Below are positions 600 to 64,000 of a stretch of DNA of 64,000 nucleotides, in pieces. Numbering within the stretch: the stretch's first letter is position 1; the number at the start of each line of letters is the position of its first letter. Position numbers and translations under genes: made by a program. The DNA comes from Tragulus kanchil (lineage: Eukaryota > Chordata > Mammalia > Artiodactyla > Tragulidae). Under the pieces are notes generated by a model, which saw only the letters and a list, made by a program, of their open reading frames with translations, did no database searches and had not been told where the DNA came from. The stretch lies in assembly GCA_022376925.1 (NCBI GenBank), contig JAIOJX010000032.1, positions 97,952,794 to 98,016,793 of the forward strand, read 5' to 3'.

Positions 600-1655
600 T
601 TCTTTCCATCCAATTACACATGCCAGAGAGGAATCCAGGACATATCCTTGACTCCCAACTTCATCTCCCATATTCTATCCACCATATTATTGATTTTCAG
701 TTCAGTTCAGTCGCTCACTCGTGTCCAACTCTTTGCAACCCCATGGACTGCAGCACACCAGGCTTCCCTGTCCTCCACCATCTCCCGGAGCTTGCTCAAA
801 CTCGTGTCCATTGACTCAGTGATGCCGTCCAACCATCTCATCCTCTGTCGTCCCTTTCTCCTTTGCCTTCTATTTTCCCCAACATCAGAGTCTTTCCCAA
901 TGAGTTGTTTCTTCCATGACTTAATTGATTTAGCTCCAGTTTATCTATCACCACCATCACCTTAGTCGAAAGAACGTAATTTTTTTTCTGGACTACAACA
1001 CTTCTAACAAGCCTTCCCTCTCATCTATAATGTTCAGCCTTTATTCTCATTGTCTCAGCCAGACTGCATATAAATTCATTTGGGTCTAATAGTGAGAGCT
1101 TTGTAGCTGGAGGATCTTTTCAAAATATAAATGTGACCATCCCTTTCATGCTAGAAATTTTCAGTGGCTTCTTATGACTCTTAGAATAAAGACATAATTC
1201 TTTTAGAGGTGGTAAAGCCAGAAGGTCAGTCCCACACTATAGATCCAGCTCCAGTTTGTATTACTTTCCTTTTAGATCTCTCTCCAACACCTCTGGAGAG
1301 TAGCCCAGGTACACACTATTCCTGCTTCAGAGGGGCTGGTCCTTCCGTCTATGAACTGGTCACACTACAAGCGTGTCAAAGATCAGCAAGGCTTTCCCTG
1401 CTCCCCATCTTGATCAGCTCCCTTTAGGATAAATTTCTTAGTGACAAAAGCCTTCTTCCCTTCTCTATGCTTATCAGTTATGATTCCATGTATATGTGTG
1501 GGACCATCTGACACTGTCTCTTGCCTCTCCAGCCAGCTGTACGGTGCATAACAAGCACACTGCCTGGGCTCATCATTGTATTTCTAACTCCTTAGTATCG
1601 TGTCTGGCACACAGGTTATAGCTGATAAATGTGTCTTGAATGAGTGTAAATAAAT
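600..1655 (+). mobile_element. LINE L2 3' region, interrupted by BovB
   Basis: The text around 630-696 and 911-1440 reads like the sense strand of LINE2 near its 3' end. It has pyrimidine-rich blocks, a 'ccaccatcacc' block at about 950, and 'ttgatcagctccc' near 1420. It closes with the typical L2 end at 1590-1655, with 'gtgtctggcacacagg' followed by 'gataaatgtgtcttgaatgag'. A BovB fragment splits it at 697-910. The element is old and diverged with no intact frame. Most of it recurs at 1815-2750 because it lies in a duplicated unit. Confidence 0.6.
697..910 (-). mobile_element. BovB/ART2A LINE 3' fragment
   Basis: The plus strand shows repeated 'ttcag' units, the reverse complement of the ACTGA-type BovB tail, then 'ccatggactgcagcac', 'ctcccggagcttgc' and 'catctcatcctctgtcgtcc'. 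These are hallmarks of the ruminant BovB 3' end read backwards. It is truncated and inserted in an older L2. The frames at 590-965 are read-throughs of it. Part recurs at 1815-2010. Confidence 0.8.
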
Positions 1656-2911
1656 TTGTCTGACTTGGAGAAACCAGCATTTACCAATGACCGGTTTTGA
1701 TAATCCCTCAAGAAATTTGCAAGCTTAACTTCCTCAAACTGGTGGTGCAAAAGGAAGAGGAAGAAGAACAAATCACAGAAAATCAGTTACTGATGAATAG
1801 CTCCTCCTAGCTACTCGTGTCCCACTCTTTGCAACCCCATGGACTGCAGCACACCAGGCTTCCCTGTCCTCCACCATCTCCCGGAGCTTGCTCAAACTCG
1901 TGTCCATTGACTCAGTGATGCCGTCCAACCATCTCATCCTCTGTCGTCCCTTTCTCCTTTGCCTTCTATTTTCCCCAACATCAGAGTCTTTCCCAATGAG
2001 TTGTTTCTTCCATGACTTAATTGATTTAGCTCCAGTTTATCTATCACCACCATCACCTTAGTCGAAAGAACGTAATTTTTTTTCTGGACTACAACACTTC
2101 TAACAAGCCTTCCCTCTCATCTATAATGTTCAGCCTTTATTCTCATTGTCTCAGCCAGACTGCATATAAATTCATTTGGGTCTAATAGTGAGAGCTTTGT
2201 AGCTGGAGGATCTTTTCAAAATATAAATGTGACCATCCCCTTTCATGCTAGAAATTTTCAGTGGCTTCTTATGACTCTTAGAATAAAGACATAATTCTTT
2301 TAGAGGTGGTAAAGCCAGAAGGTCAGTCCCACACTATAGATCCAGCTCCAGTTTGTATTACTTTCCTTTTAGATCTCTCTCCAACACCTCTGGAGAGTAG
2401 CCCAGGTACACACTATTCCTGCTTCGTAGAGCGCTGGTCCTTCCGTCTATGAACTGGTCACACTACAAGCGTGTCAAAGATCAGCAAGGCTTTCCCTGCT
2501 CCCCATCTTGATCAGCTCCCTTTAGGATAAATTTCTTAGTGACAAAAGCCTTCTTCCCTTCTCTATGCTTATCAGTTATGATTCCATGTATATGTGTGGG
2601 ACCATCTGACACTGTCTCTTGCCTCTCCAGCCAGCTGTACGGTGCATAACAAGCACACTGCCTGGGCTCATCATTGTATTTCTAACTCCTTAGTATCGTG
2701 TCTGGCACACAGGTTATAGCTGATAAATGTGTCTTGAATGAGTGTAAATAAATTTGTCTGACTTGGAGAAACCAGCATTTACCAATGACCGGTTTTGATA
2801 ATCCCTCAAGAAATTTGCAAGCTTAACTTCCTCAAACTGGTGGTGCAAAAGGAAGAGGAAGAAGAACAAATCACAGAAAATCAGTTACTGATGAATAGCT
2901 CCCTCCTAGCT
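717..2911. repeat. Duplicated unit A, two head-to-tail copies
   Basis: About 717-1811 and 1815-2911 are near-identical over roughly 1.1 kb (offset about 1098). Differences include a cluster at 1325 versus 2424 and a C-run of three versus four near 1136/2236. The join at about 1812 cuts a BovB fragment in mid-element. No target-site duplication or element boundary lies at the join, so mobile-element activity does not explain it. Probably an unmerged assembly overlap. Confidence 0.9.
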
Positions 2912-2914
2912 AGA

Positions 2915-3325
2915 CCACACCGAACCCATCCTCTGTGAGGTATTGTGGCTAAAAAGTTCCTAGCAAATATTTGTTGAATCCGTGGACAAAATCCAGTCAT
3001 TCGAGGGGGCCCAGTTTAGATGTTACACCTGCTAAGGAGTCATATCTAATGTATACCACTCTCCAGAAATAATCTCTCTGTTCCCTGTATGTTCAGAGCA
3101 TTTCAACCCCGCCGCCCGCCCACCCCCACCCACACCCCCCGCCACCACCACACCCAATGATGGTGTTTATCTTGCATGAGAGTTATCTAGGTATCTGTCT
3201 CATCTCTTAGAGCACACTGTAACTGTCTAACTTATTTCTACTCTGACCCTCCATTTCCCAAAACAGTGTCTACCTATAGTAGTGCTCACATCAAGTTTGG
3301 TGAATGAATGAATGAAAGATTGGAT
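2915..3325 (+). mobile_element. L2-like 3' ends and C-rich tract
   Basis: The block around 2955-2990 ('caaatatttgttgaatccg') and the block at 3240-3320 ending in repeated 'gaat' units both look like L2 3' termini on the plus strand. Between them lies a C-rich tract at 3107-3155. The whole stretch recurs at about 4020-4430. I see no gene. Confidence 0.4.
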
Positions 3326-3341
3326 TATATATAATGCTTGA

Positions 3342-3373
3342 ATAAGCACTCTCTCTCTCTCCCTCCCTCCCTA
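3342..3373. repeat. CT microsatellite
   Basis: A (CT)n run grades into CCCT units. The duplicate is at about 4450-4476. The join of unit C starts in the second copy of this tract. Confidence 0.8.
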
Positions 3374-4779
3374 GCTCTCTGTCTCAGGGATACAACCCTG
3401 CTAGTTTGAGTGTACCCTGACTTTCCTCATCTTCTCTTCAAAAAAAGCTGGGGGAAAGGACGGCTGGGGGAAATTGATACTTTCAATTGCTTTAAATTAA
3501 TTATCTAGCCTTTAAGATTCCCTTGTGAGAAATTAGGTTTTGGTTTCCCTTCCCCCATTCAAGCGTCTTCCATTCAGGTGAACAGTCTAATTTAAATCAG
3601 ACACCTTCCAGTTTCAGATATGTGCTCCAAACACTATTGAAGTTCAAAATCCAGCTTAGTACCCAGCACATAATCTTATCAGTTATGATTCCATGTATAT
3701 GTGTGGGACCATCTGACACTGTCTCTTGCCTCTCCAGCCAGCTGTACGGTGCATAACAAGCACACTGCCTGGGCTCATCATTGTATTTCTAACTCCTTAG
3801 TATCGTGTCTGGCACACAGGTTATAGCTGATAAATGTGTCTTGAATGAGTGTAAATAAATTTGTCTGACTTGGAGAAACCAGCATTTACCAATGACCGGT
3901 TTTGATAATCCCTCAAGAAATTTGCAAGCTTAACTTCCTCAAACTGGTGGTGCAAAAGGAAGAGGAAGAAGAACAAATCACAGAAAATCAGTTACTGATG
4001 AATAGCTCCCTCCTAGCTAGACCACACCGAACCCATCCTCTGTGAGGTATTGTGGCTAAAAAGTTCCTAGCAAATATTTGTTGAATCCGTGGACAAAATC
4101 CAGTCATTCGAGGGGGCCCAGTTTAGATGTTACACCTGCTAAGGAGTCATATCTAATGTATACCACTCTCCAGAAATAATCTCTCTGTTCCCTGTATGTT
4201 CAGAGCATTTCAACCCCCGCCCCGCCCACCCCCACCCACCCCCCGCCACCACCACACCCAATGATGGTGTTTATCTTGCATGAGAGTTATCTAGGTATCT
4301 GTCTCATCTCTTAGAGCACACTGTAACTGTCTAACTTATTTCTACTCTGACCCTCCATTTCCCAAAACAGTGTCTACCTATAGTAGTGCTCACATCAAGT
4401 TTGGTGAATGAATGAATGAAAGATTGGATTATATATAATGCTTGAATAAGCACTCTCTCTCTCTCCCTCCCTCCCTAGCTCTCTGTCTCAGGGATACAAC
4501 CCTGCTAGTTTGAGTGTACCCTGACTTTCCTCATCTTCTCTTCAAAAAAAGCTGGGGGAAAGGACGGCTGGGGGAAATTGATACTTTCAATTGCTTTAAA
4601 TTAATTATCTAGCCTTTAAGATTCCCTTGTGAGAAATTAGGTTTTGGTTTCCCTTCCCCCATTCAAGCGTCTTCCATTCAGGTGAACAGTCTAATTTAAA
4701 TCAGACACCTTCCAGTTTCAGATATGTGCTCCAAACACTATTGAAGTTCAAAATCCAGCTTAGTACCCAGCACATAATC

Positions 4780-5060
4780 ATCTAGGTATATGTCCTTATG
4801 ATATGGAAATTCCATATAGTAACTGTGAACACATTCCTTAAGTCTCTTGTTTGTACTAGTCAAAAACATACATTGATACATAGAAAGTATACCCTCTTTA
4901 CGTGTCTCCCAACTGAAAGGCTGTTCAACTAATTTGTCAGGACGGTGCGAGTCTCTTTTCTAACCATGAGCTACCATTAGGATTCAAACATGTGTACAGG
5001 AATACACCTGGAGAAGTTATCAAGTTTCAAAGCCTCAGGGAGAAACCTCAGGGTTATTTG
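4780..5060. other. Unannotated AT-rich sequence
   Basis: No gene or repeat recognised. The same sequence appears at about 5912-6195 as part of unit C. Confidence 0.5.
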
Positions 5061-5064
5061 ACCC

Positions 5065-5365
5065 AAACATCTATTTTACAGGTGATGAAACTCAAGCCCA
5101 AATAGAGGAAGTCACTTCTGGAGCTGAGATCCAAACTCAGGTTTTTGGAGTTGAAACATGTTTTATATCCCAATGATGGGCCAACCTTCTTAAATATTTT
5201 ATCACTGGTTATCTCTAATAATGTCCCAAGAAAAGTGGGATCACTCACATTTTACAGTTGAGGAAACTGGGCTCAGAAAGTTGAAATGATTTGTCTCAGG
5301 GTTTCCTGGCTCACAAGAAGTCTTCTAGATAACACAGTTGGAATTGAAAACCAGCTCTGATTAAA
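5065..5365 (-). mobile_element. MIR SINE remnants
   Basis: Two MIR-core-like blocks read in reverse. One is at 5075-5160 ('ttttacaggtgatgaaactc'). The other is at 5180-5360 ('cattttacagttgaggaaac', then 'gctcagaaagttgaaatgat'). They are diverged. The second copy is at about 6205-6500. The 64-codon minus frame at 5054-5248 is a by-product. Confidence 0.6.
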
Positions 5366-6704
5366 TCTGAGGATGGAGTGACTTCTACCACATCACAGTG
5401 GCAAAGGTCATTGGAACTTTGTCAAGAGCACATTGTTACTGAATGATGGGTTTGAGGCCAAAAGAATGCAAATTTCAGACGAGAAAACTCAAGACTAGAG
5501 ATGCCATATGCTCCTATGCCCCCACCCCAGCCCCATTACACAATACCACCAGCTCCCTGGATACCTCCAGGACCGGTCTTTTAAAATGCAGATTAATGGA
5601 AGCCTCCCTCCCTAGCTCTCTGTCTCAGGGATACAACCCTGCTAGTTTGAGTGTACCCTGACTTTCCTCATCTTCTCTTCAAAAAAAGCTGGGGGAAAGG
5701 ACGGCTGGGGGAAATTGATACTTTCAATTGCTTTAAATTAATTATCTAGCCTTTAAGATTCCCTTGTGAGAAATTAGGTTTTGGTTTCCCTTCCCCCATT
5801 CAAGCGTCTTCCATTCAGGTGAACAGTCTAATTTAAATCAGACACCTTCCAGTTTCAGATATGTGCTCCAAACACTATTGAAGTTCAAAATCCAGCTTAG
5901 TACCCAGCACATAATCATCTAGGTATATGTCCTTATGATATGGAAATTCCATATAGTAACTGTGAACACATTCCTTAAGTCTCTTGTTTGTACTAGTCAA
6001 AAACATACATTGATACATAGAAAGTATACCCTCTTTACGTGTCTCCCAACTGAAAGGCTGTTCAACTAATTTGTCAGGACGGTGCGAGTCTCTTTTCTAA
6101 CCATGAGCTACCATTAGGATTCAAACATGTGTACAGGAATACACCTGGAGAAGTTATCAAGTTTCAAAGCCTCAGGGGAGAAACCTCAGGGGTTATTTGA
6201 CCCAAACATCTATTTTACAGGTGATGAAACTCAAGCCCAAATAGAGGAAGTCACTTCTGGAGCTGAGATCCAAACTCAGGTTTTTGGAGTTGAAACATGT
6301 TTTATATCCCAATGATGGGCCAACCTTCTTAAATATTTTATCACTGGTTATCTCTAATAATGTCCCAAGAAAAGTGGGATCACTCACATTTTACAGTTGA
6401 GGAAACTGGGCTCAGAAAGTTGAAATGATTTGTCTCAGGGTTTCCTGGCTCACAAGAAGTCTTCTAGATAACACAGTTGGAATTGAAAACCAGCTCTGAT
6501 TAAATCTGAGGATGGAGTGACTTCTACCACATCACAGTGGCAAAGGTCATTGGAACTTTGTCAAGAGCACATTGTTACTGAATGATGGGTTTGAGGCCAA
6601 AAGAATGCAAATTTCAGACGAGAAAACTCAAGACTAGAGATGCCATATGCTCCTATGCCCCCACCCCAGCCCCATTACACAATACCACCAGCTCCCTGGA
6701 TACC

Positions 6705-6895
6705 TAGGACCAATATATTCACAGATTTTACTATGCATGCAGATCACCTGGGGATCTTTTTAAAATGCAGATTATGATGGAATAGTTTTTGAGTGGGGCC
6801 TGAATTTATGCAGATTCCAAGATGTTTAGGTGATGCGTATGCCCCAGTTCTGGAGCCATACCTTGCACAACAAGGCTGCTAAAGATATGACTCAG
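6705..6895 (+). mobile_element. MER5A-like hAT DNA transposon
   Basis: Shows the MER5A layout: 'gcagatcacctgggg', 'tttaaaatgcagatt', 'gagtggggcctgaattt', then 'aggtgatgcgtatgcc'. About 190 bp is close to the full length of this non-autonomous Charlie-family element. The first, end-damaged copy at about 5560-5602 lost its internal part at the contig end. Confidence 0.7.
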
Positions 6896-9536: not shown

Positions 9537-9780
9537 TTACCTACTTTTGGCTGCTCTGTTGGGTCTTAAGTCACCTTGCTCCTAGGCTGACTAGTGTGGG
9601 ACCAAGAGGCGAGTCCCCCATCTGGCTTTCTCCCAGTTTCATCCTCCTGTTCATTCAGGCATGAGTGATCCATAAGACCTTATACTCAAGCCTGACCCGT
9701 GACAACTGTGAGCTGCTATTTTTCATTATGTTGTTCATCTCCAATTATAAAAGCAACATGCTCATTGTGTCATTTCCCAC
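9537..9780. other. Unannotated sequence
   Basis: No gene or repeat recognised. A short open frame at 9665-9853 has no support. Confidence 0.4.
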
Positions 9781-11870
9781 TGCTATGACAAACCCATCCT
9801 CTCCACAGCAAACACTGCAGAAACATCAAGGGAGAAGGAGTTACACTTTATAACTGACATGAGTACTAATTAAAAATCCTCCAAGGTGTTCAAAGGAAGT
9901 TACAACTGGATCAATTGGCGATAGAGGAAAAGCAGGCTAAGAAATAGAATATTTAGATCCTGCAAATCATTTCCTTGGAAAGGCTCTCTGCATCTTGTCA
10001 GAGGAGCGAGTCATCTTCCTGCATGAAGTGCTCATACTCACTTCCGGTGAGCAATGAGAGGGGCATTCAGGTCTGGACGCAGTCACTGTGCACGCAGTGG
10101 GAGCCCACAGCACTCCAGTTTCCTTTTCAGAATGCAGACATGCCACCTCAAGGGCCCCATCACTCCTGGCTTTTCTCCAGGCTGCAAAACAGCCAGTTTC
10201 TGAGGGACATCTGCTGATGGCATCTACCAGCTCTCCAACCAGTGCATCGTGGTGTCTGCCTGAAAGCAAGTTCCCACTGGAAACCATTGCCCTGTATCTC
10301 TGTGCAGGGTCTGCTGGCTGAAGCTTGTGCCATCCCCAGGAAAGGTCTGTGAGGCTGGCAGGCAGCAATCAGCTGCTGGGACCCAGCCTTAGCTTGGGCA
10401 GCAGCAGACTTATGGGCAAAAATACAAGCCAGCACAAACAGATGTATTTGATGAATGGGCCAGTCTATTCAGTAGACTGGAAAACACGTACCACAGATAC
10501 AGTGGAGAATGCAAATACATGCCACACATGGAGAAGTCTGTATATTATCTAGGTCAAGCACAGTATTGCCAAAGAGATAAGGAAGAAAAAGAACCCGGAA
10601 CAGCGGATGAAGCAGGAGAATGGGAGATTCAATGTGTTAGAAGCTCCCGTCCTGCCTCTAATTAAGGTTAAGCATAAAATCTTCAAATGATCCCCATAGA
10701 AACAGGCTGGAAGGGAAGTGTTGTTCCCTCCACTTCATACAACCTGGGCTTCCAAGATCACACCAGTAGTCGGTGCTCTAGCGGTGCGAGAACCCACACC
10801 TCTCAGACTCCTATGCTCTTCGCCCCCCTGCTATGACAAACCCATCCTCTCCACAGCAAACACTGCAGAAACATCAAGGGAGAAGGAGTTACACTTTATA
10901 ACTGACATGAGTACTAATTAAAATCCTCCAAGGTGTTCAAAGGAAGTTACAACTGGATCAATTGGCGATAGAGGAAAAGCAGGCTAAGAAATAGAATATT
11001 TAGATCCTGCAAATCATTTCCTTGGAAAGGCTCTCTGCATCTTGTCAGAGGAGCGAGTCATCTTCCTGCATGAAGTGCTCATACTCACTTCCGGTGAGCA
11101 ATGAGAGGGGCATTCAGGTCTGGACGCAGTCACTGTGCACGCAGTGGGAGCCCACAGCACTCCAGTTTCCTTTTCAGAATGCAGACATGCCACCTCAAGG
11201 GCCCCATCACTCCTGGCTTTTCTCCAGGCTGCAAAACAGCCAGTTTCTGAGGGACATCTGCTGATGGCATCTACCAGCTCTCCAACCAGTGCATCGTGGT
11301 GTCTGCCTGAAAGCAAGTTCCCACTGGAAACCATTGCCCTGTATCTCTGTGCAGGGTCTGCTGGCTGAAGCTTGTGCCATCCCCAGGAAAGGTCTGTGAG
11401 GCTGGCAGGCAGCAATCAGCTGCTGGGACCCAGCCTTAGCTTGGGCAGCAGCAGACTTATGGGCAAAAATACAAGCCAGCACAAACAGATGTATTTGATG
11501 AATGGGCCAGTCTATTCAGTAGACTGGAAAACACGTACCACAGATACAGTGGAGAATGCAAATACATGCCACACATGGAGAAGTCTGTATATTATCTAGG
11601 TCAAGCACAGTATTGCCAAAGAGATAAGGAAGAAAAAGAACCCGGAACAGCGGATGAAGCAGGAGAATGGGAGATTCAATGTGTTAGAAGCTCCCGTCCT
11701 GCCTCTAATTAAGGTTAAGCATAAAATCTTCAAATGATCCCCATAGAAACAGGCTGGAAGGGAAGTGTTGTTCCCTCCACTTCATACAACCTGGGCTTCC
11801 AAGATCACACCAGTAGTCGGTGCTCTAGCGGTGCGAGAACCCACACCTCTCAGACTCCTATGCTCTTCGC
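9781..11870. repeat. Duplicated unit D, two head-to-tail copies
   Basis: About 9781-10822 repeats at 10829-11870 (offset 1047-1048). The only clear early difference is an A-run (five versus four A) at about 9873/10921. A run of C at 10823-10828 sits on the join, replacing the sequence that follows copy 2. Every frame in this stretch therefore appears twice. Confidence 0.92.
9960..10440. other. GC-rich stretch, open on both strands
   Basis: Overlapping open frames occur on both strands here: 133 codons minus at 9967-10368, 91 codons minus at 10160-10435, and 75-80 codons plus. I recognise no protein family and frames on both strands argue against real coding. It could be an old processed pseudogene. 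Duplicate at 11007-11487. Confidence 0.3.
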
Positions 11871-13340: not shown

Positions 13341-13889
13341 TCAATGGCACTGAGCTACATTTTGAATAAACAAGTGAACATGTGCAAGGATCGGAGAGGG
13401 GTAGGACACAAGCTTAGAAGTCAGGCAGTCTCAAGGTCTGAACATCAGCCCTGGCACTAACTAGCAAGGACTGAAGTCCAAGTCTCTGCCACAGCAACCT
13501 TTGGAAGTGATACTTCTTTTCTGCAGTATTTGTTTGAAGTCCCTTTCCAAATCTGCCTCTTCTCAACTTTAGCAAGTCTACACGCACATATGGAATGGCC
13601 ACCATTGTCGAGCTGTCACTGGGCCCTGGGAAGCAATGTGCAGATGAATGGGACAGACCTTGCCCTCCAAGAGCACAGGGATCTCAGGGGTGGACATGAA
13701 ACAGCCACTTACTAGGTATGTGGGATCTATGCTGTATGACACAGATGCAGAGGAAAGGCTGATTAACACTCAAGACTCCATCCCTGAACCACAGCTGCCT
13801 TCTGGAATTACATCTTGGGTCCTTTGGCCTGGATTACATTATTGGGTGACTTATCATAGAATTTAGTGTGGGATAAGAATCTTGAGACA

Positions 13890-13990
13890 TTTTAATTCAA
13901 TCTTTATTTCACAGGTGAGGAAACTGAGGCCCAGAGAGGTGACAGTCATAAGTAGGAAGGGACAGGAATTGGTTCTGACTCAGACCTCTC
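13890..13990 (-). mobile_element. MIR SINE core
   Basis: 'tttcacaggtgaggaaactg' then 'aggcccagagaggtgacagt' is a well preserved reverse MIR core. Duplicate at 14995-15095. Confidence 0.75.
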
Positions 13991-14320
13991 AACCTCCCCG
14001 GCTTGCTAAGCTTCAGCACTTATGAGATGTCCCAATCTTCTCATTTATTTCACCCCCTCCATTCATATTCTCCAACCTCCTTCAGCTGGGTGTGTAATGC
14101 AGGACAGGGACTGAATACATATAACATTTCTCAGTGGGATACTTGAAATTAAATAAACATTATATTTTTTGGACTCATTTCCAGAAATCTCTCCAGCGAG
14201 GACCTTTATTTATCTAGCTGAAGTGCCAAAGTCTCAGTTAACATTAAAAGCTGCTGCAGATGAATCTCATTTGTAAAATGTAGTAAATGTAAAAAGTCCT
14301 AATCTAGGATTTGGGAAGTG
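13991..14320. other. Unannotated sequence
   Basis: No gene seen. It recurs at 15096-15425. Confidence 0.4.
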
Positions 14321-14540
14321 CAGATTCTAAGGTCCGCTCTGCCAGGAGGTGGCCCAAGGCCATAGGCCTGTCCCTCAGCTCCTGGGACCTCCAGCAGTTC
14401 TCCAACTGTAAGGGAGAAGCTGTCCCCTAATGGAAGCTTCATGAGGTTAGGGGCTTGATCCACTTCTGTCTCACAGGGCCTGGAGCCATCCCTGGCATTC
14501 AGCAGGGACTCGATACATACTTCTTTAACATGTGGACCAA
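14321..14540 (+). mobile_element. MIR-like SINE, sense
   Basis: 'gggaagtgcagattctaagg' then 'ccagcagttctccaactgta' and 'ggcattcagcagggactcg' resemble a diverged sense MIR. Duplicate at 15426-15645. Confidence 0.4.
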
Positions 14541-16889: not shown

Positions 16890-17265
16890 TCAGCCTTGTT
16901 TCTACCAAATTCCAAACTTTTTAATCTGTAAAAGAGGCAATAACACCTGTATATTAAGCTGTGACTGTGAGGACCAGGTGAGATAATGTCTTCAAAGTGT
17001 TCGGCCTAGGGGTTCAGCAGTAAAGAATCTGTTTGCCAGGCAGGAGATGCAGTTTTGACCCCTCCCCCTCCACCCCACTGGAGTGACAACCCACTCCAGT
17101 GTTCTTGCCTGGGAAATCCCATGGACAGAGGAGCCTGGCGGCTATAGTCCATGGGGTCATAAAAGAGTCAGACAGGACTTACTGACTAAAAATAAACGAA
17201 AACAAAGTGCTTAGCCAGGTCAGGGCCTGGCCCATGGCAAGTTCGGCAAATCGTAGATGCCGCTG
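16890..17265 (+). mobile_element. MIR SINE split by a Bov-tA
   Basis: The MIR 5'/core part ends at about 17000 ('gataatgtcttcaaagtg') and the 3' part resumes at about 17208 ('cttagccaggtcagggcctg'). A Bov-tA lies between, flanked on both sides by 'caaagtg', which looks like its target-site duplication. Most of it repeats at 18032-18357. Confidence 0.7.
17003..17200 (+). mobile_element. Bov-tA SINE
   Basis: Head 'ggttcagcagtaaagaatct', 'caggcaggagatgcag', then body 'acaacccactccagtgttct' and 'gtcataaaagagtcagac'. A C-rich interruption at about 17060-17080 widens the head/body junction. Duplicate at 18094-18291. Confidence 0.88.
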
Positions 17266-17354
17266 ACCCTGATCCTCTCTGAACATCACTCTCTTTGTAA
17301 TTGGGACTGGCAAGGGCCCCTACCTCATATATTCATTAAGAAAACTCATCGAGG

Positions 17355-19318: not shown

Positions 19319-19374
19319 AACACAGTGCTGACTGCAGTACCATCCGATGTTATGTGTCACACTCTCTTATAAAT

Positions 19375-19500: not shown

Positions 19501-19504
19501 TTGA

Positions 19505-42324: not shown

Positions 42325-42455
42325 TTGTGTTATTCATATTGAGGTAAGATGAGTGAATTCCTGAGAAGATGACTGGAGAAGGACTTTGGAACTAAAGGAA
42401 ATTTCAGTGGGGTGACAGTTTTGCCCCTAGTTTTTTACTTGAAAATAAAAATTTT

Positions 42456-50464: not shown

Positions 50465-50793
50465 TTTTTTTAAAGATTTATTTATTTATTTATTTTTGGG
50501 CGGGGGTCGGGTTGGGGAGAGAAGGGAGCGGGCGGGCCACTTCTATTGGTCTTTCATTTCTCTATTTTTAGCCGTCTTTGTTCTTTGGCTCCTGTGGACC
50601 TCCCATCGTGGTGGCGTCTGTTGTTGCAGAGCGCCGGCTCTGGGCACATGCGCCCCAGAGCTCCGGCTCGGTAATTGGACACATTGGTCCAGCCGCTCCG
50701 CAGCACGTGGGATCTTCCCAGGCCAGGGATCGAACCGGCGCCCCTTGCACTGCAAGGCGGTGTCCTTACCCACTGGACCACCAGGGGAAGCCC
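50465..50793 (-). mobile_element. Unfamiliar tRNA-headed SINE, copy 6, complete
   Basis: Head at right ('ggaccaccaggggaagccc'), B box 'agggatcgaaccggcgcc', body through 'gagctccggctcggtaattg' to 'tagccgtctttgttctttgg', then a G-rich tract at 50498-50536, AAAT repeats and a T-run. Target-site duplication 'tcagctgatttttt' at 50451-50464 and 50794-50807. Partial duplicate at 51741-51917, which carries GCGCATGCGC at 51768-51777 where this copy has a CpG change. Confidence 0.92.
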
Positions 50794-50844
50794 TCAGCTG
50801 ATTTTTTAACCAATCTTATAAGGCAGGAACTATAAATTCCTCCA

Positions 50845-51242
50845 CAGTTGGTCCTCTCTATCCATGGGTTTCACATCTGCAAATCAAAAATACTTGAAAA
50901 AAATTCATATTGGAAGATATGCATAGGTTATATGCATATACTATGCCATTTTATAAGGGCTTACACTGTGACTCAGAAGTAAAGAATCCACCAACGCAGG
51001 AGATGCAGGAGGTGTGGGTTCAATTCCTGGGTTGGGAAGATCCCTTAGAGGAGAGCACTCCAGTATTCTTGCCTGTAGAATCCCATGGACAGTGGAGCCT
51101 GGTGGGCAAAGCGTCAGACACAACTGAAGCAATTGAGCACACATGCATGTATGCCATTTTATATAAGGGGCTTGAGCATCCTTAGGCTTTGGCATTCAAG
51201 GGGATCCTGGAACTAATCCTCCTCAGGATACCAAGGGGTGAT
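50845..51242. mobile_element. MER2-like Tigger DNA transposon, internally deleted
   Basis: One end reads 'cagttggtcctctctatcca' and the other 'cctcaggataccaaggggtg', the inverted terminal repeats of MER2. Internal blocks are 'tgcataggttatatgcatat' and 'ggggcttgagcatccttagg'. A Bov-tA is inserted at 50957, with 'atgccattttata' on both sides as its target-site duplication. Duplicate at 51969-52366. Confidence 0.75.
50957..51143 (+). mobile_element. Bov-tA SINE inside MER2
   Basis: 'gggcttacactgtgactcag', 'gttcaattcctgggttggg', 'gagagcactccagtattctt', 'cgtcagacacaactgaagc'. Duplicate at 52081-52267. Confidence 0.88.
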
Positions 51243-51360
51243 TATATTTTACATAAGGGAAGAGTAAGGCTCAGAGAGGTTAAGTCATTTGTTAAAGGTC
51301 ACACAGCTGGTACATGACAGTAGATTCAGATTTCAGTCTGTCTGGCTCTACAACTCCCAA

Positions 51361-51540
51361 TTTTAAGTTCCAAAAGCAATGAACTTTATATTCGTCCTTG
51401 CTCTCACCCTAAATTAGGACTCCAAAGAAGGTTGTACTATTACAAAATTGTAACCTTCATTTGTATATTCCTATTTTGATACTGGGAAGACAATAAGTCT
51501 ACAGAGATGCTCAAAAGTCTAGGCTGCCCTAAAGGAATAA
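51361..51540. other. Unannotated sequence
   Basis: No gene or repeat recognised. Repeats at 52485-52664. Confidence 0.4.
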
Positions 51541-51740
51541 ATGGGCTTCCCTGATGCCTCAGTGGTAAAGAATCTGCCTGCCAATGCAAGAGACATGCGT
51601 TTAATCCCTGGTCTAGGAAGATTCCCTAGAGAAGGAAATGGCAACCCACTCCAGCATACTTGCCTGGGAAATCCCATGAATAGATCAGCCTGGTCTGCTA
51701 CAGTTCGTGGGGTCCCAAAGAGTCAGACACGACTGAACAA
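51541..51740 (+). mobile_element. Bov-tA SINE
   Basis: 'gggcttccctgatgcctcag', 'gccaatgcaagagacatgcg', 'ggcaacccactccagcatac', 'aaagagtcagacacgactga'. Cut by the unit O join in this copy. The complete version is at 52665-52870. Confidence 0.9.
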
Positions 51741-52870
51741 TCTGTTGTTGCAGAGCGCCGGCTCTGGGCGCATGCGCTCCAGAGCTCCGGCTCGGTAATT
51801 GGACACATTGGTCCAGCCGCTCCGCAGCACGTGGGATCTTCCCAGGCCAGGGATCGAACCGGCGCCCCTTGCACTGCAAGGCGGTGTCCTTACCCACTGG
51901 ACCACCAGGGGAAGCCCTCAGCTGATTTTTTAACCAATCTTATAAGGCAGGAACTATAAATTCCTCCACAGTTGGTCCTCTCTATCCATGGGTTTCACAT
52001 CTGCAAATCAAAAATACTTGAAAAAAATTCATATTGGAAGATATGCATAGGTTATATGCATATACTATGCCATTTTATAAGGGCTTACACTGTGACTCAG
52101 AAGTAAAGAATCCACCAACGCAGGAGATGCAGGAGGTGTGGGTTCAATTCCTGGGTTGGGAAGATCCCTTAGAGGAGAGCACTCCAGTATTCTTGCCTGT
52201 AGAATCCCATGGACAGTGGAGCCTGGTGGGCAAAGCGTCAGACACAACTGAAGCAATTGAGCACACATGCATGTATGCCATTTTATATAAGGGGCTTGAG
52301 CATCCTTAGGCTTTGGCATTCAAGGGGATCCTGGAACTAATCCTCCTCAGGATACCAAGGGGTGATTATATTTTACATAAGGGAAGAGTAAGGCTCAGAG
52401 AGGTTAAGTCATTTGTTAAAGGTCACACAGCTGGTACATGACAGTAGATTCAGATTTCAGTCTGTCTGGCTCTACAACTCCCAATTTTAAGTTCCAAAAG
52501 CAATGAACTTTATATTCGTCCTTGCTCTCACCCTAAATTAGGACTCCAAAGAAGGTTGTACTATTACAAAATTGTAACCTTCATTTGTATATTCCTATTT
52601 TGATACTGGGAAGACAATAAGTCTACAGAGATGCTCAAAAGTCTAGGCTGCCCTAAAGGAATAAATGGGCTTCCCTGATGCCTCAGTGGTAAAGAATCTG
52701 CCTGCCAATGCAAGAGACATGCGTTTAATCCCTGGTCTAGGAAGATTCCCTAGAGAAGGAAATGGCAACCCACTCCAGCATACTTGCCTGGGAAATCCCA
52801 TGAATAGATCAGCCTGGTCTGCTACAGTTCGTGGGGTCCCAAAGAGTCAGACACGACTGAACAACAACAA

Positions 52871-55229: not shown

Positions 55230-55650
55230 TCCCTATGAGAAAGTGACTTTTGCACATAGTTTTAAAGGAGATGAGGGAAGAAGCCATGTAAATATCTGAG
55301 TTAGAGGAACTTCCAGGATGAAGAAATGGCCAGTAAAAAAAACCTCCCTACAAGAGTGCGTCTGCCACCCTGAGAACCAGCAAAGGAGTAAGTGAGGCTG
55401 GAGTGGGGGAGCGGGGATGGGAGAAGATCACAGCTAACAAGAATCTCATCTTGGAGAGTTTCACCAGCAAATGGAGCATTTTCAGTAAAGAAGTTAAAAA
55501 TCTTACTTCTAAAAGAATCATTACCTATTGAATGTAGGTATCAAGTGGGAGAGTAAAAGTAGAAGCAGTTAAATGGCGTTTGTACTCATCCATGGGAGAC
55601 TGATGATGGCTTGGTCCATAGTAAGAGCAGGGAAATGCTGAGAAGAGAAT
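55230..55650. other. Unannotated sequence
   Basis: No gene or repeat recognised. Confidence 0.4.
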
Positions 55651-55689
55651 GGATGCTGGACACATTTGACAGATCTGATAGGGGGTGGG

Positions 55690-56040
55690 ACAGATGCCCA
55701 GGAGAAAGACTTTATTTCCCAGCTTCTCCTGAAACTAGGCAAAGTCATCTAATTCTAAATTCTGACTCATGGAATATAAACGGAAGTGGGAAGTGGTGGG
55801 CAACTTCCCAAAGGGGAGAAGCGTGCTCTCTAGTTCGCCCCTTCCCTCGGCCTTACTGGCTAACATTTGGCTGTAAGGCTGGTAGCCACCTTGGGTGCTG
55901 CCATGTTGGATCACCAAGAAGTCACTGGGTGACCCAGGGAGTAGTGGCCACATCAGCCATGGTCTGGCAATGCATGCCCTGTTACATGAGAAAGACATTT
56001 CTGCAGTATTTGAGCCCTTTTACTTAAGGTCTCTGCAGAG
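55690..56040. other. Ancient repeat-like sequence, family uncertain
   Basis: Blocks such as 'tatttcccagcttctcctga', 'actcatggaatataaacgga' and 'gggagaagcgtgctctctag' look like an old mammalian interspersed repeat, but I cannot assign it. The 138-codon plus frame at 55611-56027 and 87-codon minus frame have no recognisable domain. Duplicate at 56812-57162. Confidence 0.35.
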
Positions 56041-56321
56041 ATGTCAAATGTCCATCATACCTAACATTATGACCATGTGTTCTTCATCCAGAGTTCCAAA
56101 AGGATTTTATCTTGGAATCTGAAAGTCTAAGTCAACCCAAGAAGATATTTTGATGGCAGAAACTATGTCTTCTAGAAGTCACTAGAAAGAAGTCCCAAGT
56201 GTTCATATCTTACTTTTCACAATGAACTATTCAATTCACAAAATATTTTGCATTATTTAATTCTTGAAGCAGCACTTTGAGTTGAGTATCATTCTCTACT
56301 CTACTGTGATCACCCAGGGGA

Positions 56322-56323
<2 letters not shown>

Positions 56324-56386
<63 letters not shown>
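56324..56386. repeat. (TA)n microsatellite at the L1 3' end
   Basis: About 31 TA units directly next to the L1 tail ('attctttattttaaagg'). The second copy at 57446-57509 has a slightly different length and boundary. It encodes only Tyr-Ile runs in plus-strand frames. Confidence 0.92.
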
Positions 56387-56389
<3 letters not shown>

Positions 56390-57443
56390 CTTTATTTTAA
56401 AGGTTTTACAGAGTTTTGTTGTTCACAGACTTGTATGTTTCCAGATCAGTCATATGCATATCCATGGTCCCCACCCCTCCAGTTCCCCCCAATCTGACCC
56501 CTCCAGACCATCGCCCCAAGCCATTGTAAGCACTCCTATTCCCTTAGCACAATGACACTAGCTATCTTTTCCACACATAACAGTATAGGTTTCCATGTTA
56601 CTCCCTCCATGCTTCCCCCTCCCTATTTCTTCCCCACAATGTCCATATGTCTATGCTCTGTTTTTCTATGAGTTCCCTCGCTGTTATCAAGACTATCCTA
56701 CTAGATTCCATATATGTGTGTTAGTATACTGTATTTGTCTTTCTCTTTTGACTTCACTTTTATGATACGTTTGGATGCTGGACACATTTGACAGATCTGA
56801 TAGGGGGTGGGACAGATGCCCAGGAGAAAGACTTTATTTCCCAGCTTCTCCTGAAACTAGGCAAAGTCATCTAATTCTAAATTCTGACTCATGGAATATA
56901 AACGGAAGTGGGAAGTGGTGGGCAACTTCCCAAAGGGGAGAAGCGTGCTCTCTAGTTCGCCCCTTCCCTCGGCCTTACTGGCTAACATTTGGCTGTAAGG
57001 CTGGTAGCCACCTTGGGTGCTGCCATGTTGGATCACCAAGAAGTCACTGGGTGACCCAGGGAGTAGTGGCCACATCAGCCATGGTCTGGCAATGCATGCC
57101 CTGTTACATGAGAAAGACATTTCTGCAGTATTTGAGCCCTTTTACTTAAGGTCTCTGCAGAGATGTCAAATGTCCATCATACCTAACATTATGACCATGT
57201 GTTCTTCATCCAGAGTTCCAAAAGGATTTTATCTTGGAATCTGAAAGTCTAAGTCAACCCAAGAAGATATTTTGATGGCAGAAACTATGTCTTCTAGAAG
57301 TCACTAGAAAGAAGTCCCAAGTGTTCATATCTTACTTTTCACAATGAACTATTCAATTCACAAAATATTTTGCATTATTTAATTCTTGAAGCAGCACTTT
57401 GAGTTGAGTATCATTCTCTACTCTACTGTGATCACCCAGGGGA

Positions 57444-57511
<68 letters not shown>

Positions 57512-57823
57512 TTTATTTTAAAGGTTTTACAGAGTTTTGTTGTTCACAGACTTGTATGTTTCCAGATCAGTCATATGCATATCCATGGTCCCCACCCCTC
57601 CAGTTCCCCCCAATCTGACCCCTCCAGACCATCGCCCCAAGCCATTGTAAGCACTCCTATTCCCTTAGCACAATGACACTAGCTATCTTTTCCACACATA
57701 ACAGTATAGGTTTCCATGTTACTCCCTCCATGCTTCCCCCTCCCTATTTCTTCCCCACAATGTCCATATGTCTATGCTCTGTTTTTCTATGAGTTCCCTG
57801 CGCGTGTTATCAAGACTATCCTA

Positions 57824-58340
57824 CTAGATTCCATATATGTGTGTTAGTATACTGTATTTGTCTTTCTCTTTTTGACTTACTTCACTTTTTATGATACGTT
57901 CTAGATCCAGCCACTTCATTAGGACTGAGTTTTCTGCATTTCTTTTAACAGCTGAGTAGTATTCCATTGTATATATGTACCAGGGCTTCTGTATCCATTC
58001 ATTCGTCGATGGACATCTAGGTTGCTTCCAAGTTCTGGCTATTGTATAAAGAGAGAGCTGCAATGAACATTGGGGTACAGGTGCTTCTTTCAGTTTTGAT
58101 TTCATCAGGATATAAGCCTAATAGTGGGATTGCTGGGTCATAGGGTGCTTCTATTTTTAGTTTTTTAAGGAATCTCCATACTGTCTTCCATAGAGGCTGT
58201 ATCAATTGACATTCCCACCAGCAATGCAAGAGGGTTCCCTTTTCTCCACACCCTCTCCAGCATTTATTGTCTGTAGATTTTTTGATGATGGCCATTCTGA
58301 CGGGTGTGAGGTGGTATCTCATTGTAGTTTTAATTTGCAT
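57824..58340 (-). pseudogene. L1 ORF2 C-terminus, frameshifted (copy 1)
   Basis: Two overlapping minus frames: 58017-58340 (107 codons, Cys-rich segment '[18 protein letters not shown]' typical of the L1 ORF2 C-terminal cysteine motif) and 57824-58105 (93 codons, ending 'ILTHIYGI'). The frame changes between 58105 and 58017, so the reading frame is broken. The true ORF2 stop is at about 57824. Confidence 0.88.
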
Positions 58341-58893
58341 TTCTCTAATAATAAGTGAAGTTGAGCATCATTTCATGTGTTTTTGGGCCATCTGTATGTC
58401 CTCTTCAGAGAGGTGTCTGTTTAGGTCCTTTTCCCATTTTTTGATTGGGTTGTTTATTTTTCCAGTGCTGAGTTGTCTGAGTTGCTTGTAGATTTTGGAG
58501 ATGAATTCTTTGTCTGTTGTTTTATTTGCTATGATTTTCTCCCACTCTGTGGGGTGTCTGTTCAGCTTTTTTGTAATTTCTTTTGCTGTACAAAAGCTTT
58601 TAAGTTTTGTTGTTCACCGACATGTATGTTCCCAGATCATTCATATGTATATCCATGGTCCCCACCCCTCCAGTTCCCCCCAATCTGACCCCTCCAGACC
58701 ATCGCCCCAAGCCATTGTAAGCACTCCTATTCCCTTAGCACAATGACACTAGCTATCTTTTCCACACATAACAGTATAGGTTTCCATGTTACTCCCTCCA
58801 TGCTTCCCCCTCCCTATTTCTTCCCCACAATGTCCATATGTCTATGCTCTGTTTTTCTATGAGTTCCCTGCGCGTGTTATCAAGACTATCCTA

Positions 58894-59410
58894 CTAGATT
58901 CCATATATGTGTGTTAGTATACTGTATTTGTCTTTCTCTTTTTGACTTACTTCACTTTTTATGATACGTTCTAGATCCAGCCACTTCATTAGGACTGAGT
59001 TTTCTGCATTTCTTTTAACAGCTGAGTAGTATTCCATTGTATATATGTACCAGGGCTTCTGTATCCATTCATTCGTCGATGGACATCTAGGTTGCTTCCA
59101 AGTTCTGGCTATTGTATAAAGAGAGAGCTGCAATGAACATTGGGGTACAGGTGCTTCTTTCAGTTTTGATTTCATCAGGATATAAGCCTAATAGTGGGAT
59201 TGCTGGGTCATAGGGTGCTTCTATTTTTAGTTTTTTAAGGAATCTCCATACTGTCTTCCATAGAGGCTGTATCAATTGACATTCCCACCAGCAATGCAAG
59301 AGGGTTCCCTTTTCTCCACACCCTCTCCAGCATTTATTGTCTGTAGATTTTTTGATGATGGCCATTCTGACGGGTGTGAGGTGGTATCTCATTGTAGTTT
59401 TAATTTGCAT
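58894..59410 (-). pseudogene. L1 ORF2 C-terminus, frameshifted (copy 2)
   Basis: Identical content to the block at 57824-58340, shifted by 1070. Frames at 59087-59410 and 58894-59175. An in-frame TGA at 59438-59440 separates it from the upstream ORF2 frame at 59438-60610, so the element also has a stop there. Confidence 0.88.
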
Positions 59411-59437
59411 TTCTCTAATAATAAGTGAAGTTGAGCA

Positions 59438-60833
59438 TCATTTCATGTGTTTTTGGGCCATCTGTATGTCCTCTTCAGAGAGGTGTCTGTTTAGGTCCTT
59501 TTCCCATTTTTTGATTGGGTTGTTTATTTTTCCAGTGCTGAGTTGTCTGAGTTGCTTGTAGATTTTGGAGATGAATTCTTTGTCTGTTGTTTTATTTGCT
59601 ATGATTTTCTCCCACTCTGTGGGGTGTCTGTTCAGCTTTTTTGTAATTTCTTTTGCTGTACAAAAGCTTTTAAGTTTCATGAGGTCCCACATGTTCATTT
59701 GTCTTTTCAGTTCCACTATTTTAGTTGGTGGGTCAGGGAAGATCTTGCTTTGATTGATGTCCTTGAGGGTTTTGCCTATATTCTCCTCTAACAGTTTGAG
59801 GGGTTCTAGTCTTACATTTAGGTCTTTAATCCATTTTGAGTTGATCTTAGTGTATGGTGTCAGGGAATGTTCCAACTTCATTTTTTTGCATGTAGCTGTC
59901 CAATTCTCCCAGCACCACTTGTTGAAGAGGCTGTCTTTGTCCCATTTTATAGTTTCTCCTCCTTTGTCAAAAATAAGGTACCCATAGGTGCGTGGGTTTA
60001 TCTCTGGGTTCTCGATCTTGTTCCATTGGTCGATATTTCTGTTTTTGTGCCAGTACCATACTGTCTCGATGACTGTTGCTTTGTAGTAGAGTCTGAAGTT
60101 AGGGAGGCTGATTCCTCCAGCTCCATTTTTCTTTCTCAGGATTGCTTTGGCTATTCGAGGTCTTTTGTATTTCCATATGAACTGTGCTATTCTTTGGTCT
60201 AGTTCTGTGAAGAATGTCAATGGAAGTTGAATAGGTATTGCATTGACTCTGTAGATGACATTTGGTAGTATGGTCATTTTCACAATATTGATTCTTCCGA
60301 CCCAGGAACATGGAATATCTCTCCATCTGTTTAAGTCTTCTTTAATGTCTCTCATGAGTGTCTTGTAATTTTCTGTGTACAATTCTTTTGTTTCTTTGGG
60401 TAGGTTTATTCCTAGATATTTGATTCTTTTGGTTGCAGTGGTGAAGGGGATTGCCTCTTTGGTTTCGTTTTCTGATTTTTCATTGTTTGTATACAGGAAT
60501 GCCAGTGATTTCTGTGTGTTGACTTTGTATCCTGCGACTTTGCTGAATTCGTTGATTAGCTCTAGTAGCTTTGTAATAGAGTCTTTGGGATTTTCTATGT
60601 ATAATATCATGTCGTCTGCAAAAACAGAGAGCTTGACTTCTTCCTTTCCAATCTGGATTCCTTTGATTTCTTTCTCTTCTCTTATTGCTGTTGCTAGAAC
60701 TTCCAGGACTATGTTGAATAGTAGTGGTGAAAGTGGACACCCCTGTCTTGTTCCTGATCTTAAGAGGGAATGCTTTCAGTTTTTCACCGTTGAGGATAAT
60801 GTTCGCTGTGGGCTTCTCATAGATGGCTTTCAC
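59438..60833 (-). pseudogene. L1 ORF2, RT and downstream region (copy 1)
   Basis: The 390-codon frame 59438-60610 covers ORF2 downstream of the RT active site: '[18 protein letters not shown]', 'IKYLGINL', '[10 protein letters not shown]', '[18 protein letters not shown]'. The catalytic F-A-D-D motif lies just upstream at about 60608-60625. A one-base frameshift at about 60762 moves the upstream part into another frame (60480-60833, starting '[20 protein letters not shown]'). Enzymatically dead. Confidence 0.9.
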
Positions 60834-62216
60834 TATGTTGAGCTAGGTTCCTTCTATGCCCATTTTCTGAAGAGTTTTTATTATAAATGGATGTTGTACT
60901 TTGTCGAAGGCTTTTTCTGCATCTATTGAGATGATCATGTGATTTCTGTCTCTCAGTTTGTTGATATGGTGTATCACGTTGATTGATTTGCGGATGTTGA
61001 AGAAACCTCGCATGCCTGGGATGAGCCCGACTTGACCATTATAAATTTGATGTTGTACTTTGTCGAAGGACTTTTTTGCATGTAGCTGTCCAATTCTCCC
61101 AGCACCACTTGTTGAAGAGGCTGTCTTTGTCCCATTTTATAGTTTCTCCTCCTTTGTCAAAAATAAGGTACCCATAGGTGCGTGGGTTTATCTCTGGGTT
61201 CTCGATCTTGTTCCATTGGTCGATATTTCTGTTTTTGTGCCAGTACCATACTGTCTCGATGACTGTTGCTTTGTAGTAGAGTCTGAAGTTAGGGAGGCTG
61301 ATTCCTCCAGCTCCATTTTTCTTTCTCAGGATTGCTTTGGCTATTCGAGGTCTTTTGTATTTCCATATGAACTGTGCTATTCTTTGGTCTAGTTCTGTGA
61401 AGAATGTCAATGGAAGTTGAATAGGTATTGCATTGACTCTGTAGATGACATTTGGTAGTATGGTCATTTTCACAATATTGATTCTTCCGACCCAGGAACA
61501 TGGAATATCTCTCCATCTGTTTAAGTCTTCTTTAATGTCTCTCATGAGTGTCTTGTAATTTTCTGTGTACAATTCTTTTGTTTCTTTGGGTAGGTTTATT
61601 CCTAGATATTTGATTCTTTTGGTTGCAGTGGTGAAGGGGATTGCCTCTTTGGTTTCGTTTTCTGATTTTTCATTGTTTGTATACAGGAATGCCAGTGATT
61701 TCTGTGTGTTGACTTTGTATCCTGCGACTTTGCTGAATTCGTTGATTAGCTCTAGTAGCTTTGTAATAGAGTCTTTGGGATTTTCTATGTATAATATCAT
61801 GTCGTCTGCAAAAACAGAGAGCTTGACTTCTTCCTTTCCAATCTGGATTCCTTTGATTTCTTTCTCTTCTCTTATTGCTGTTGCTAGAACTTCCAGGACT
61901 ATGTTGAATAGTAGTGGTGAAAGTGGACACCCCTGTCTTGTTCCTGATCTTAAGAGGGAATGCTTTCAGTTTTTCACCGTTGAGGATAATGTTCGCTGTG
62001 GGCTTCTCATAGATGGCTTTCACTATGTTGAGCTAGGTTCCTTCTATGCCCATTTTCTGAAGAGTTTTTATTATAAATGGATGTTGTACTTTGTCGAAGG
62101 CTTTTTCTGCATCTATTGAGATGATCATGTGATTTCTGTCTCTCAGTTTGTTGATATGGTGTATCACGTTGATTGATTTGCGGATGTTGAAGAAACCTCG
62201 CATGCCTGGGATGAAC
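59882..62216. repeat. Duplicated unit R, with junction filler
   Basis: About 59882-61023 repeats at 61072-62216 (offset 1190). The 48 bases at 61024-61071 resemble L1 sequence from about 60885-60915, not the true continuation. They look like a mis-assembled bridge between the copies. Confidence 0.9.
61039..62023 (-). pseudogene. L1 ORF2 RT region (copy 2)
   Basis: Repeats the block at 59882-60833. The 253-codon frame at 61039-61800 ends early because the artificial join at about 61072 truncates it. The same frameshift lies at about 61952. Its C-terminal residues come from junction filler. Confidence 0.88.
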
Positions 62217-62855
62217 CCAACTTGATCATGATATATGAGTTTTTTGATGCGTCGTTGAATTCTGTTTACTAGGATTTTGTTGAGGATCTTGGCATCTAAG
62301 CTCATCAGAGAAATTGGTCTGTAATTTTCCTTTTTTGTGTTGTCTTTGCCTGGTTTGGGTATCAGGGTGATGGTGGTCTCGTAGAATGTGTTTGGAAGTT
62401 TTCCTTCCTGTACAATTTTGGAAGAGTTTTAGAAGGACAGGCATTAGCTCTTCTTTAAATGTTTGGTAGAATTCGACTGTGAAGCCATCTGGCCCTGGGC
62501 TTTTATTTTTGGGTAGATTTTTAATCATAGATTCGATTTCTGAGCTTGTGATTGGATTGTTCAAAGTTTCTGTTTCTTCCTGGCTCAGTCTTGGGAGATT
62601 GATCTTCCCCAAGAAACTGTCCATTTCTTCCAGGTTGTCCAGTTTGTTGCCATAGAGTTGCTCATAATAGTCCCTTAGAATCCTTTGGATTTCTGAATGA
62701 TCTGTTGTAATCTCTCCTTTTTTGTTTTTGATTTTGTTGATCTGGTTCTTCTCCCTCTTTCTCTTGATGAGTCTGGCCAGAGGCTTGTCAATTGTGTTTA
62801 CCTTTTCAAAGAACCAGCTTTTTGTTTTATTTATCCATACTATAGTTTCTTTCAT
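62033..62855 (-). pseudogene. L1 ORF2, start of RT domain (copy 1)
   Basis: Frames 62226-62855 (209 codons) and 62033-62305 (90 codons) together cover the region before and into the RT domain: 'NKSPGPDGF', '[18 protein letters not shown]', '[10 protein letters not shown]'. The two-base T-run difference at about 62415 breaks this copy. The copy at 63171-63983 is open through the same point, so this break may be a sequencing error rather than a real mutation. Confidence 0.88.
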
Positions 62856-62869
62856 TTCTTTCTGATTTA

Positions 62870-63107
62870 TTTCTGCTCTAGTCTTTATAATTTCTCATTT
62901 TCTGCTGGCTTTGGGATGTTTTTGTTCTTCTTTCTCCAATTGTTTTAAGCGGAGGGTTAGGTCATCTGCTTCATATTTTCCTAATTTCTTGAGGTGGGAT
63001 TGTATTGCTATAAATTTGCCTCTTAGAACTGCTTTTGCGGTATCCCATAGGTTTTGCATGGTCGTATGTTCATTGTCATTTTCTTCTAGGAATTTTTAAA
63101 TTTCTCC
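62870..63107 (-). pseudogene. L1 ORF2, upstream linker part
   Basis: Reversed ORF2 sequence upstream of the RT domain ('gaggtgggattgtattgcta', 'gcggtatcccataggttttg'). It is the furthest 5' part of the L1 seen and ends at the unit S join. No long open frame remains. Confidence 0.7.
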
Positions 63108-63170
63108 TGAGGATAATGTTCGCTGTGGGCTTCTCATAGATGGCTTTCACTATGGTGAGATAGGTTCCTT

Positions 63171-63983
63171 CTATGCCCATTTTCTGAAGAGTTTTATCAT
63201 AAATGGATGTTGTACTTTGTCGAAGGCTTTTTCTGCATCTATTGAGATGATCATGTGATTTCTGTCTCTCAGTTTGTTGATATGGTGTATCACGTTGATT
63301 GATTTGCGGATGTTGAAGAAACCTCGCATGCCTGGGATGAACCCAACTTGATCATGATATATGAGTTTTTTGATGCGTCGTTGAATTCTGTTTACTAGGA
63401 TTTTGTTGAGGATCTTGGCATCTAAGCTCATCAGAGAAATTGGTCTGTAATTTTCCTTTTTTGTGTTGTCTTTGCCTGGTTTGGGTATCAGGGTGATGGT
63501 GGTCTCGTAGAATGTGTTTGGAAGTTTTCCTTCCTGTACAATTTTTTGGAAGAGTTTTAGAAGGACAGGCATTAGCTCTTCTTTAAATGTTTGGTAGAAT
63601 TCGACTGTGAAGCCATCTGGCCCTGGGCTTTTATTTTTGGGTAGATTTTTAATCATAGATTCGATTTCTGAGCTTGTGATTGGATTGTTCAAAGTTTCTG
63701 TTTCTTCCTGGCTCAGTCTTGGGAGATTGATCTTCCCCAAGAAACTGTCCATTTCTTCCAGGTTGTCCAGTTTGTTGCCATAGAGTTGCTCATAATAGTC
63801 CCTTAGAATCCTTTGGATTTCTGAATGATCTGTTGTAATCTCTCCTTTTTTGTTTTTGATTTTGTTGATCTGGTTCTTCTCCCTCTTTCTCTTGATGAGT
63901 CTGGCCAGAGGCTTGTCAATTGTGTTTACCTTTTCAAAGAACCAGCTTTTTGTTTTATTTATCCATACTATAGTTTCTTTCAT
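63171..63983 (-). pseudogene. L1 ORF2, RT N-terminal half, open (copy 2)
   Basis: A 270-codon frame: '[18 protein letters not shown]' linker, 'NKSPGPDGF', 'ENYRPISLM', '[11 protein letters not shown]', '[18 protein letters not shown]', '[15 protein letters not shown]'. These are RT motifs 0 to A of L1 ORF2. It is interrupted at its C-terminal end (from about 63195) by a one-base difference from copy 1 and then by the artificial join. The upstream end is simply the window edge. Confidence 0.9.
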
Positions 63984-64000
63984 TTCTTTCTGATTTATTT

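Follow-up and report, generated by a model that had tools for sequence, protein, structure and literature searches.

A 64,000-nucleotide stretch of the Tragulus kanchil assembly GCA_022376925.1 (contig JAIOJX010000032.1, called C2 here, positions 97952794-98016793), referred to below as the window, contains nineteen blocks of about 1.1 kb that are each present twice, head to tail. The same doubling, of nearly fixed length, was found throughout the sampled genome, and the copies differ mainly next to the seams at which they meet. As far as the sequence tells, this is not a biological feature; the doublings are almost certainly an assembly artefact in which overlaps between consecutive assembly segments were left untrimmed. 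An earlier, sequence-only reading of the window had proposed overlaps retained between joined contigs, to which our analysis adds the extent of the doubling, across the genome as sampled, and the step of assembly at which the fault probably arose.

Self-comparison of the window recovered all nineteen pairs listed in the sequence-only reading, each within a base or so of the offset given there. The offsets range from 1048 to 1190 bp (mean 1111.3, standard deviation 31.5), which bears out the single narrow size class, and they sum to 21,115 bp, in agreement with the roughly 21 kb of the window that had been called redundant. The statement that the units share no sequence with each other was not quite right, as five neighbouring couples overlap (1/2, 2/3, 10/11, 16/17 and 18/19), leaving about 220-390 bp present three times. 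The copies are near-identical but imperfect. Three pairs (5, 9 and 12) show 100% identity, the interior differences in the others are few and often consist of length changes in homopolymers or TA repeats, and the differences crowd the seams. In the eighteen pairs that lie wholly inside the window, the left and right exact blocks meet within 1 bp at five joins, while 4-93 bp are left between them at the remaining thirteen, this remainder often being a degraded copy. The copies abut without a gap and not a single N occurs in the whole window. The segments between the window seams are 1858-6676 bp long.

The doubling is widespread and not local to the window. The genome comprises 3,167,203,957 bases in 32 contigs, and a search with window positions 1-1500 matched many of these, the 48 rows including thirteen couples, counted by eye, that lie outside the window with 1036-1156 bp between their members. 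A total of 22 further stretches of 10 kb (220 kb) were then compared with themselves. Two of them flank the window and the other twenty, placed at round coordinates and mostly on contigs already known to be long, are distributed over 14 of the 32 contigs. At least one join was found in 21 of the 22 stretches, with 54 joins in all. Among the twenty non-flanking stretches, nineteen contain at least one pair, every one of the 14 sampled contigs being represented, and the joins number 51 over the 200 kb. One of these, with three joins, had been placed 1 Mb from the pairless stretch for the reason that the latter had no pair; excluding it leaves 18 of 19 stretches and 48 joins in 190 kb. The redundant share of the 200-kb sample is 28%, or 30% after correction for stretch ends. 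The 64 complete units from the window and the 22 stretches have a mean length of 1110.9 bp (standard deviation 32.6, range 1024-1191). A scan of the same sequences for repeats that are 250 bp or longer and lie 300-5000 bp apart, skipping 24-mers occurring more than six times, found only the class of about 1.1 kb and eleven diagonals at 2138-2288 bp, a distance consistent with third copies where units overlap; chance is therefore excluded. Three of the contigs (C2, C3 and C15) measure 292-297 Mb, the 14 long contigs measured are all at least 73 Mb, C27 extends to at least 114 Mb and C31 to at least 151 Mb. So few large contigs suggest a chromosome number that is low for a ruminant, about 15-16, with lengths inflated by the doubling.

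On the best-supported reading, the assembler represented the chromosome as a row of short segments, 1.9-6.7 kb in length in this window, with an anchor of about 1.1 kb common to each segment and the next. A separate consensus would have been made for each segment and the segments written end to end, so that the anchor was kept twice. Long reads were presumably the input, and the anchor would be a node of the assembly graph. The untrimmed overlaps of the sequence-only reading agree with the near-fixed length, the spread over the genome and the doubled genes and seam-sided errors described below. Its ordinary contigs do not, the pieces being only 1858-6676 bp long with no N between them. Such short and gapless pieces make a fault in the layout or consensus step more likely than one in scaffolding.

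A version of the artefact in which scaffolding or gap filling left ordinary contigs overlapping, known as homotype false duplication at contig ends, is unlikely but deserves the most weight among the alternatives. Excerpts of the work of the Vertebrate Genomes Project (VGP) describe homotype duplications at contig boundaries in vertebrates, with a gap and of about read length, and trace one false-duplication case to a bug in FALCON (PMC8081667). The likeness extends to one locus standing twice in tandem, to overlapping pieces both being kept and to copies that differ by sequencing error and not by allele; here too, both copies of a pair would represent one locus. The published duplications lie at contig ends with a gap between the copies (PMC8081667), whereas those found here abut, without an N in the window and with about one join per 4 kb. 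Segments of 1858-6676 bp are very short, and their boundaries very frequent, for contig ends in sequences of 73-297 Mb, and the published overlaps track read length whereas those found here have a standard deviation of about 3%. The excerpted figures also differ in extent. VGP duplication rates before purging ranged from 0.3% to 30% (PMC8081667) and homotype duplication reached at most 2.7% among six tabulated assemblies (54.0 Mb, in the earlier platypus assembly; PMC9516828), so that the redundant share of about 28-30% in our sample is roughly ten times the published homotype maximum.

Another version, a graph of fixed k in homopolymer-compressed space that was exported without overlap trimming, is considerably less probable. 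Several copies do differ in homopolymer length only, but substitutions near the seams are present as well. We rejected it on the compressed lengths, which vary from 765 to 833 in the near-complete units 5, 6, 7, 8, 9, 12 and 13, where a fixed k would give one value. As these two alternatives are versions of the same artefact, our confidence in each overlaps with our confidence in the untrimmed overlaps as a whole.

The overlapping units allow the differences to be assigned to a copy. In each resulting triple, copy A ends at a seam, copy B is internal and copy C begins at a seam. Fifteen triples were available, five in the window and ten in nine of the fetched stretches (including one beside the window), each compared as far as its last match of 8 columns. 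They contain thirty differences, two triples being free of any, and the odd copy is A in fourteen cases, C in fifteen and B in one. Of the 29 differences that fall on seam copies, 26 are no more than 100 bp from the seam of the copy concerned. If the three copies were alike, B would be expected to be odd about ten times, and the probability of one case or fewer is about 8e-5, a rough value from hand arithmetic, since differences at the same join do not count as independent. The copies thus differ by consensus error rather than by allele, with the errors concentrated at the ends of pieces. This is the pattern expected from independent consensus pieces with poor ends.

Real tandem duplication would require a process in this lineage that very recently doubled arbitrary blocks of about 1.1 kb very many times over the genome, and we give it almost no credence. 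The sequence as given does read as duplicated head to tail on all 14 contigs sampled. Duplication offers no cause, however, for the restriction of 29 of the 30 triple differences to the copies touching a seam. The exact matches that stop 4-93 bp short at thirteen of the eighteen uncut joins, and often continue as a degraded copy, also stand against it, and so do the near-fixed length without shared sequence and the doubling of exons from two conserved gene families.

These families are the homeodomain and p53 families. The homeodomain search gave 150 scored rows from 439 candidates. Seventy-one distances between rows are below 4 kb. Of these, 44 measure 1013-1203 bp, while 13 are shorter than 1000 bp and 14 longer than 1250 bp, and the 44 pairs in the class of about 1.1 kb take in 85 of the 150 scored rows. 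Five homeoboxes doubled at 1095-1158 bp occur in a run on contig C27 (60.94-61.15 Mb), which looks like a HOX cluster, a label given by appearance. The p53 family gave eleven matches that reduce to eight exon places, three of which are doubled: two on C2, both with copies 1094 bp apart, and one on C23, with copies 1149 bp apart that differ in score. The p53-family and homeobox exons concerned are known to be single in mammals, and we know of no mechanism that would double them or that would set a near-fixed length in units without shared sequence. The 14 control genomes gave no match for either family and hence provide no comparison. Outside the class of about 1.1 kb, three homeobox matches of equal score were observed on C30 (132727863, 132734427 and 132741913), spaced by 6.6 and 7.5 kb; they may reflect either a genuine family of tandem genes or a different fault of the assembly.

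Haplotype (heterotype) false duplication, with both parental alleles placed in tandem, would suit the few interior differences, which over 61 units amount to 0.41 substitutions per kb, but is as improbable as real duplication, since allelic blocks have no fixed length and the differences found here are polarised and crowded at the seams. Only the interior value of this 61-unit comparison is used: unit starts were set at the start of exact matching, so that bases outside the real seam enter the comparison and inflate the value for the last 100 bp, and the triples are the sounder guide to where the errors fall.

Returning to untrimmed segment overlaps, the spacing of the joins gives an indication of the kind of assembler involved. 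None of the 51 start-to-start spacings between anchors is below 681 bp, where about fourteen would be expected from an exponential distribution of equal mean, and twelve lie at 681-842 bp. Such a floor is as expected if adjacent nodes were allowed only a slight overlap, and the near-fixed anchor length together with the limited anchor overlap suggests graph nodes. In wtdbg and wtdbg2, two edges that adjoin have a vertex in common, so that it occurs in the consensus of both and should be trimmed when the program runs correctly. Within a read, vertices may overlap by 256 bases at most, and spacing in steps of 256 raw bases would be expected if segment starts sit on 256-base bins. The vertices of wtdbg2 are segments of 1024 bases, according to the excerpts available (PMC10989838, PMC7506008), against an overlap here with a mean of 1110.9, a standard deviation of 32.6 and a minimum of 1024 (n=64). 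If the doublings are an artefact, a fuzzy-Bruijn-graph layout of the wtdbg/wtdbg2 type with 1024-base nodes is the best fit, in part, and we lean slightly towards it. On such a layout an edge would span two nodes and a consensus would be made per edge, with a single node shared between adjacent edges; the step that joins them would have failed or been skipped. Whether the doublings amount to a systematic failure of an assembler's segment-joining step, affecting many or all joins over a mammalian genome of chromosome scale and undescribed in the literature searched, we regard as an even question.

Several points weigh against these interpretations. The case for both the artefact and the assembler is indirect, being built from sequence alone and from one assembly of one species. 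The minimum node spacing is present as a wtdbg2-type layout predicts, but the 256-base rhythm is absent (Rayleigh p of about 0.20 for 33 spacings below 2200 bp), and no period of 150-518 was found in the join spacing either (p of about 0.53). The spacing script could fuse joins less than 300 bp apart, which restricts the secure part of the floor to 300-681 bp, where about seven spacings would be expected by hand arithmetic. The mean overlap is 1111 and not 1024, a difference that would need about 8% net deletions in the raw reads or extra consensus at the segment ends. One of the thirty triple differences falls in the middle copy B. A single stretch among the 22 (C26:30000001-30010000) has no doubled unit; it may represent one long segment or joins that were properly trimmed. 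Finally, the literature search, which took in PMC10989838, PMC7506008, PMC8081667, PMC9516828, PMC8854726 and PMC7367183, yielded general work on false duplication, work using wtdbg2 and unrelated work. No account of such a failure was found among them, and two papers whose authors used wtdbg2 do not mention the fault in the excerpts available.

The individual pairs, all on the plus strand, are positioned as follows in the window. Positions 1-279 are the right-copy tail of a twentieth pair that straddles the window start, matching C2:97951703-97951980 at 99% identity, 1091 bp upstream. Pair 1 (left copy 717-1813, right copy 1814-2911, offset 1097) is overlapped by the left copy of pair 2 (2568-3674 and 3675-4782, offset 1107), whose right copy is in turn overlapped by the left copy of pair 3 (4466-5602 and 5603-6711, offset 1137). 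These are followed by pair 4 (9776-10823 and 10824-11870, offset 1048), the identical pair 5 (13692-14796 and 14797-15901, offset 1105), pair 6 (16941-18031 and 18032-19107, offset 1091), pair 7 (19249-20379 and 20380-21514, offset 1131) and pair 8 (23545-24645 and 24646-25746, offset 1101). Pair 9 (27712-28794 and 28795-29878, offset 1083) is again identical in both copies. Pairs 10 (33935-35091 and 35092-36249, offset 1157) and 11 (35863-36949 and 36950-38036, offset 1087) overlap, and beyond them lie the third identical pair, 12 (38641-39761 and 39762-40882, offset 1121), pair 13 (41476-42578 and 42579-43675, offset 1103), pair 14 (43951-45064 and 45065-46161, offset 1114) and pair 15 (50617-51740 and 51741-52864, offset 1124). 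Pair 16 (55650-56771 and 56772-57900, offset 1122) has differences in the last 93 bp or so of its left copy and is overlapped by pair 17 (57579-58648 and 58649-59694, offset 1070). A TA run in pair 16 differs by one unit between the copies (56325-56385 against 57447-57509), as expected from consensus error.

The last two pairs, 18 (59882-61071 and 61072-62246, offset 1190) and 19 (61981-63107 and 63108-64000, offset 1127, its right copy truncated where the window stops), sit within a single minus-strand L1 ORF2 (59087..64000). Seven pieces of this ORF2 were compared with the solved ORF2p (8uw3_A), and the residue numbers drop back across each seam and are collinear otherwise, a result that speaks for the artefact. 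On the minus strand, the pieces correspond to residues 350-619 (63998-63171), 273-337 (63095-62895), 339-499 (62894-62226), 499-625 (62428-62033), 653-947 (61965-61039), 653-1093 (60775-59438) and 1095-1202 (59437-59087), the frames between 61038 and 60776 having been left out of the comparison. A T run in pair 19 differs by two bases in length between the copies (62416 and 63542), and the ORF2 frame is open further in the right copy of this pair than in the left. From 49 stop-to-stop frames with a length of 110 amino acids or more, ten were compared with Pfam, and the three that match RVT_1 all belong to the L1. Rfam gave no match at the gathering threshold over the whole window.

If the rate in the 200-kb sample holds, about 28-30% of the 3.17 Gb would be redundant, leaving some 2.2-2.3 Gb as the true length of the assembly. 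By the same extrapolation from 200 kb, a genome-wide failure of joining would correspond to an inflation of about 0.9 Gb, with about 40% of the true sequence doubled, exons included. The doubled homeobox and p53-family exons could then yield false exon gains, broken gene models and false segmental duplications, and the doubling could halve read depth and cause multi-mapping. If this explanation is true, the fault may lurk unnoticed in other assemblies from the same pipeline, where it would be detectable by a scan for self-overlaps of about 1.1 kb. For Tragulus kanchil, studies of gene families, copy number or repeat age that use this genome would be misled; the doublings are serious for data quality and mean nothing as biology.

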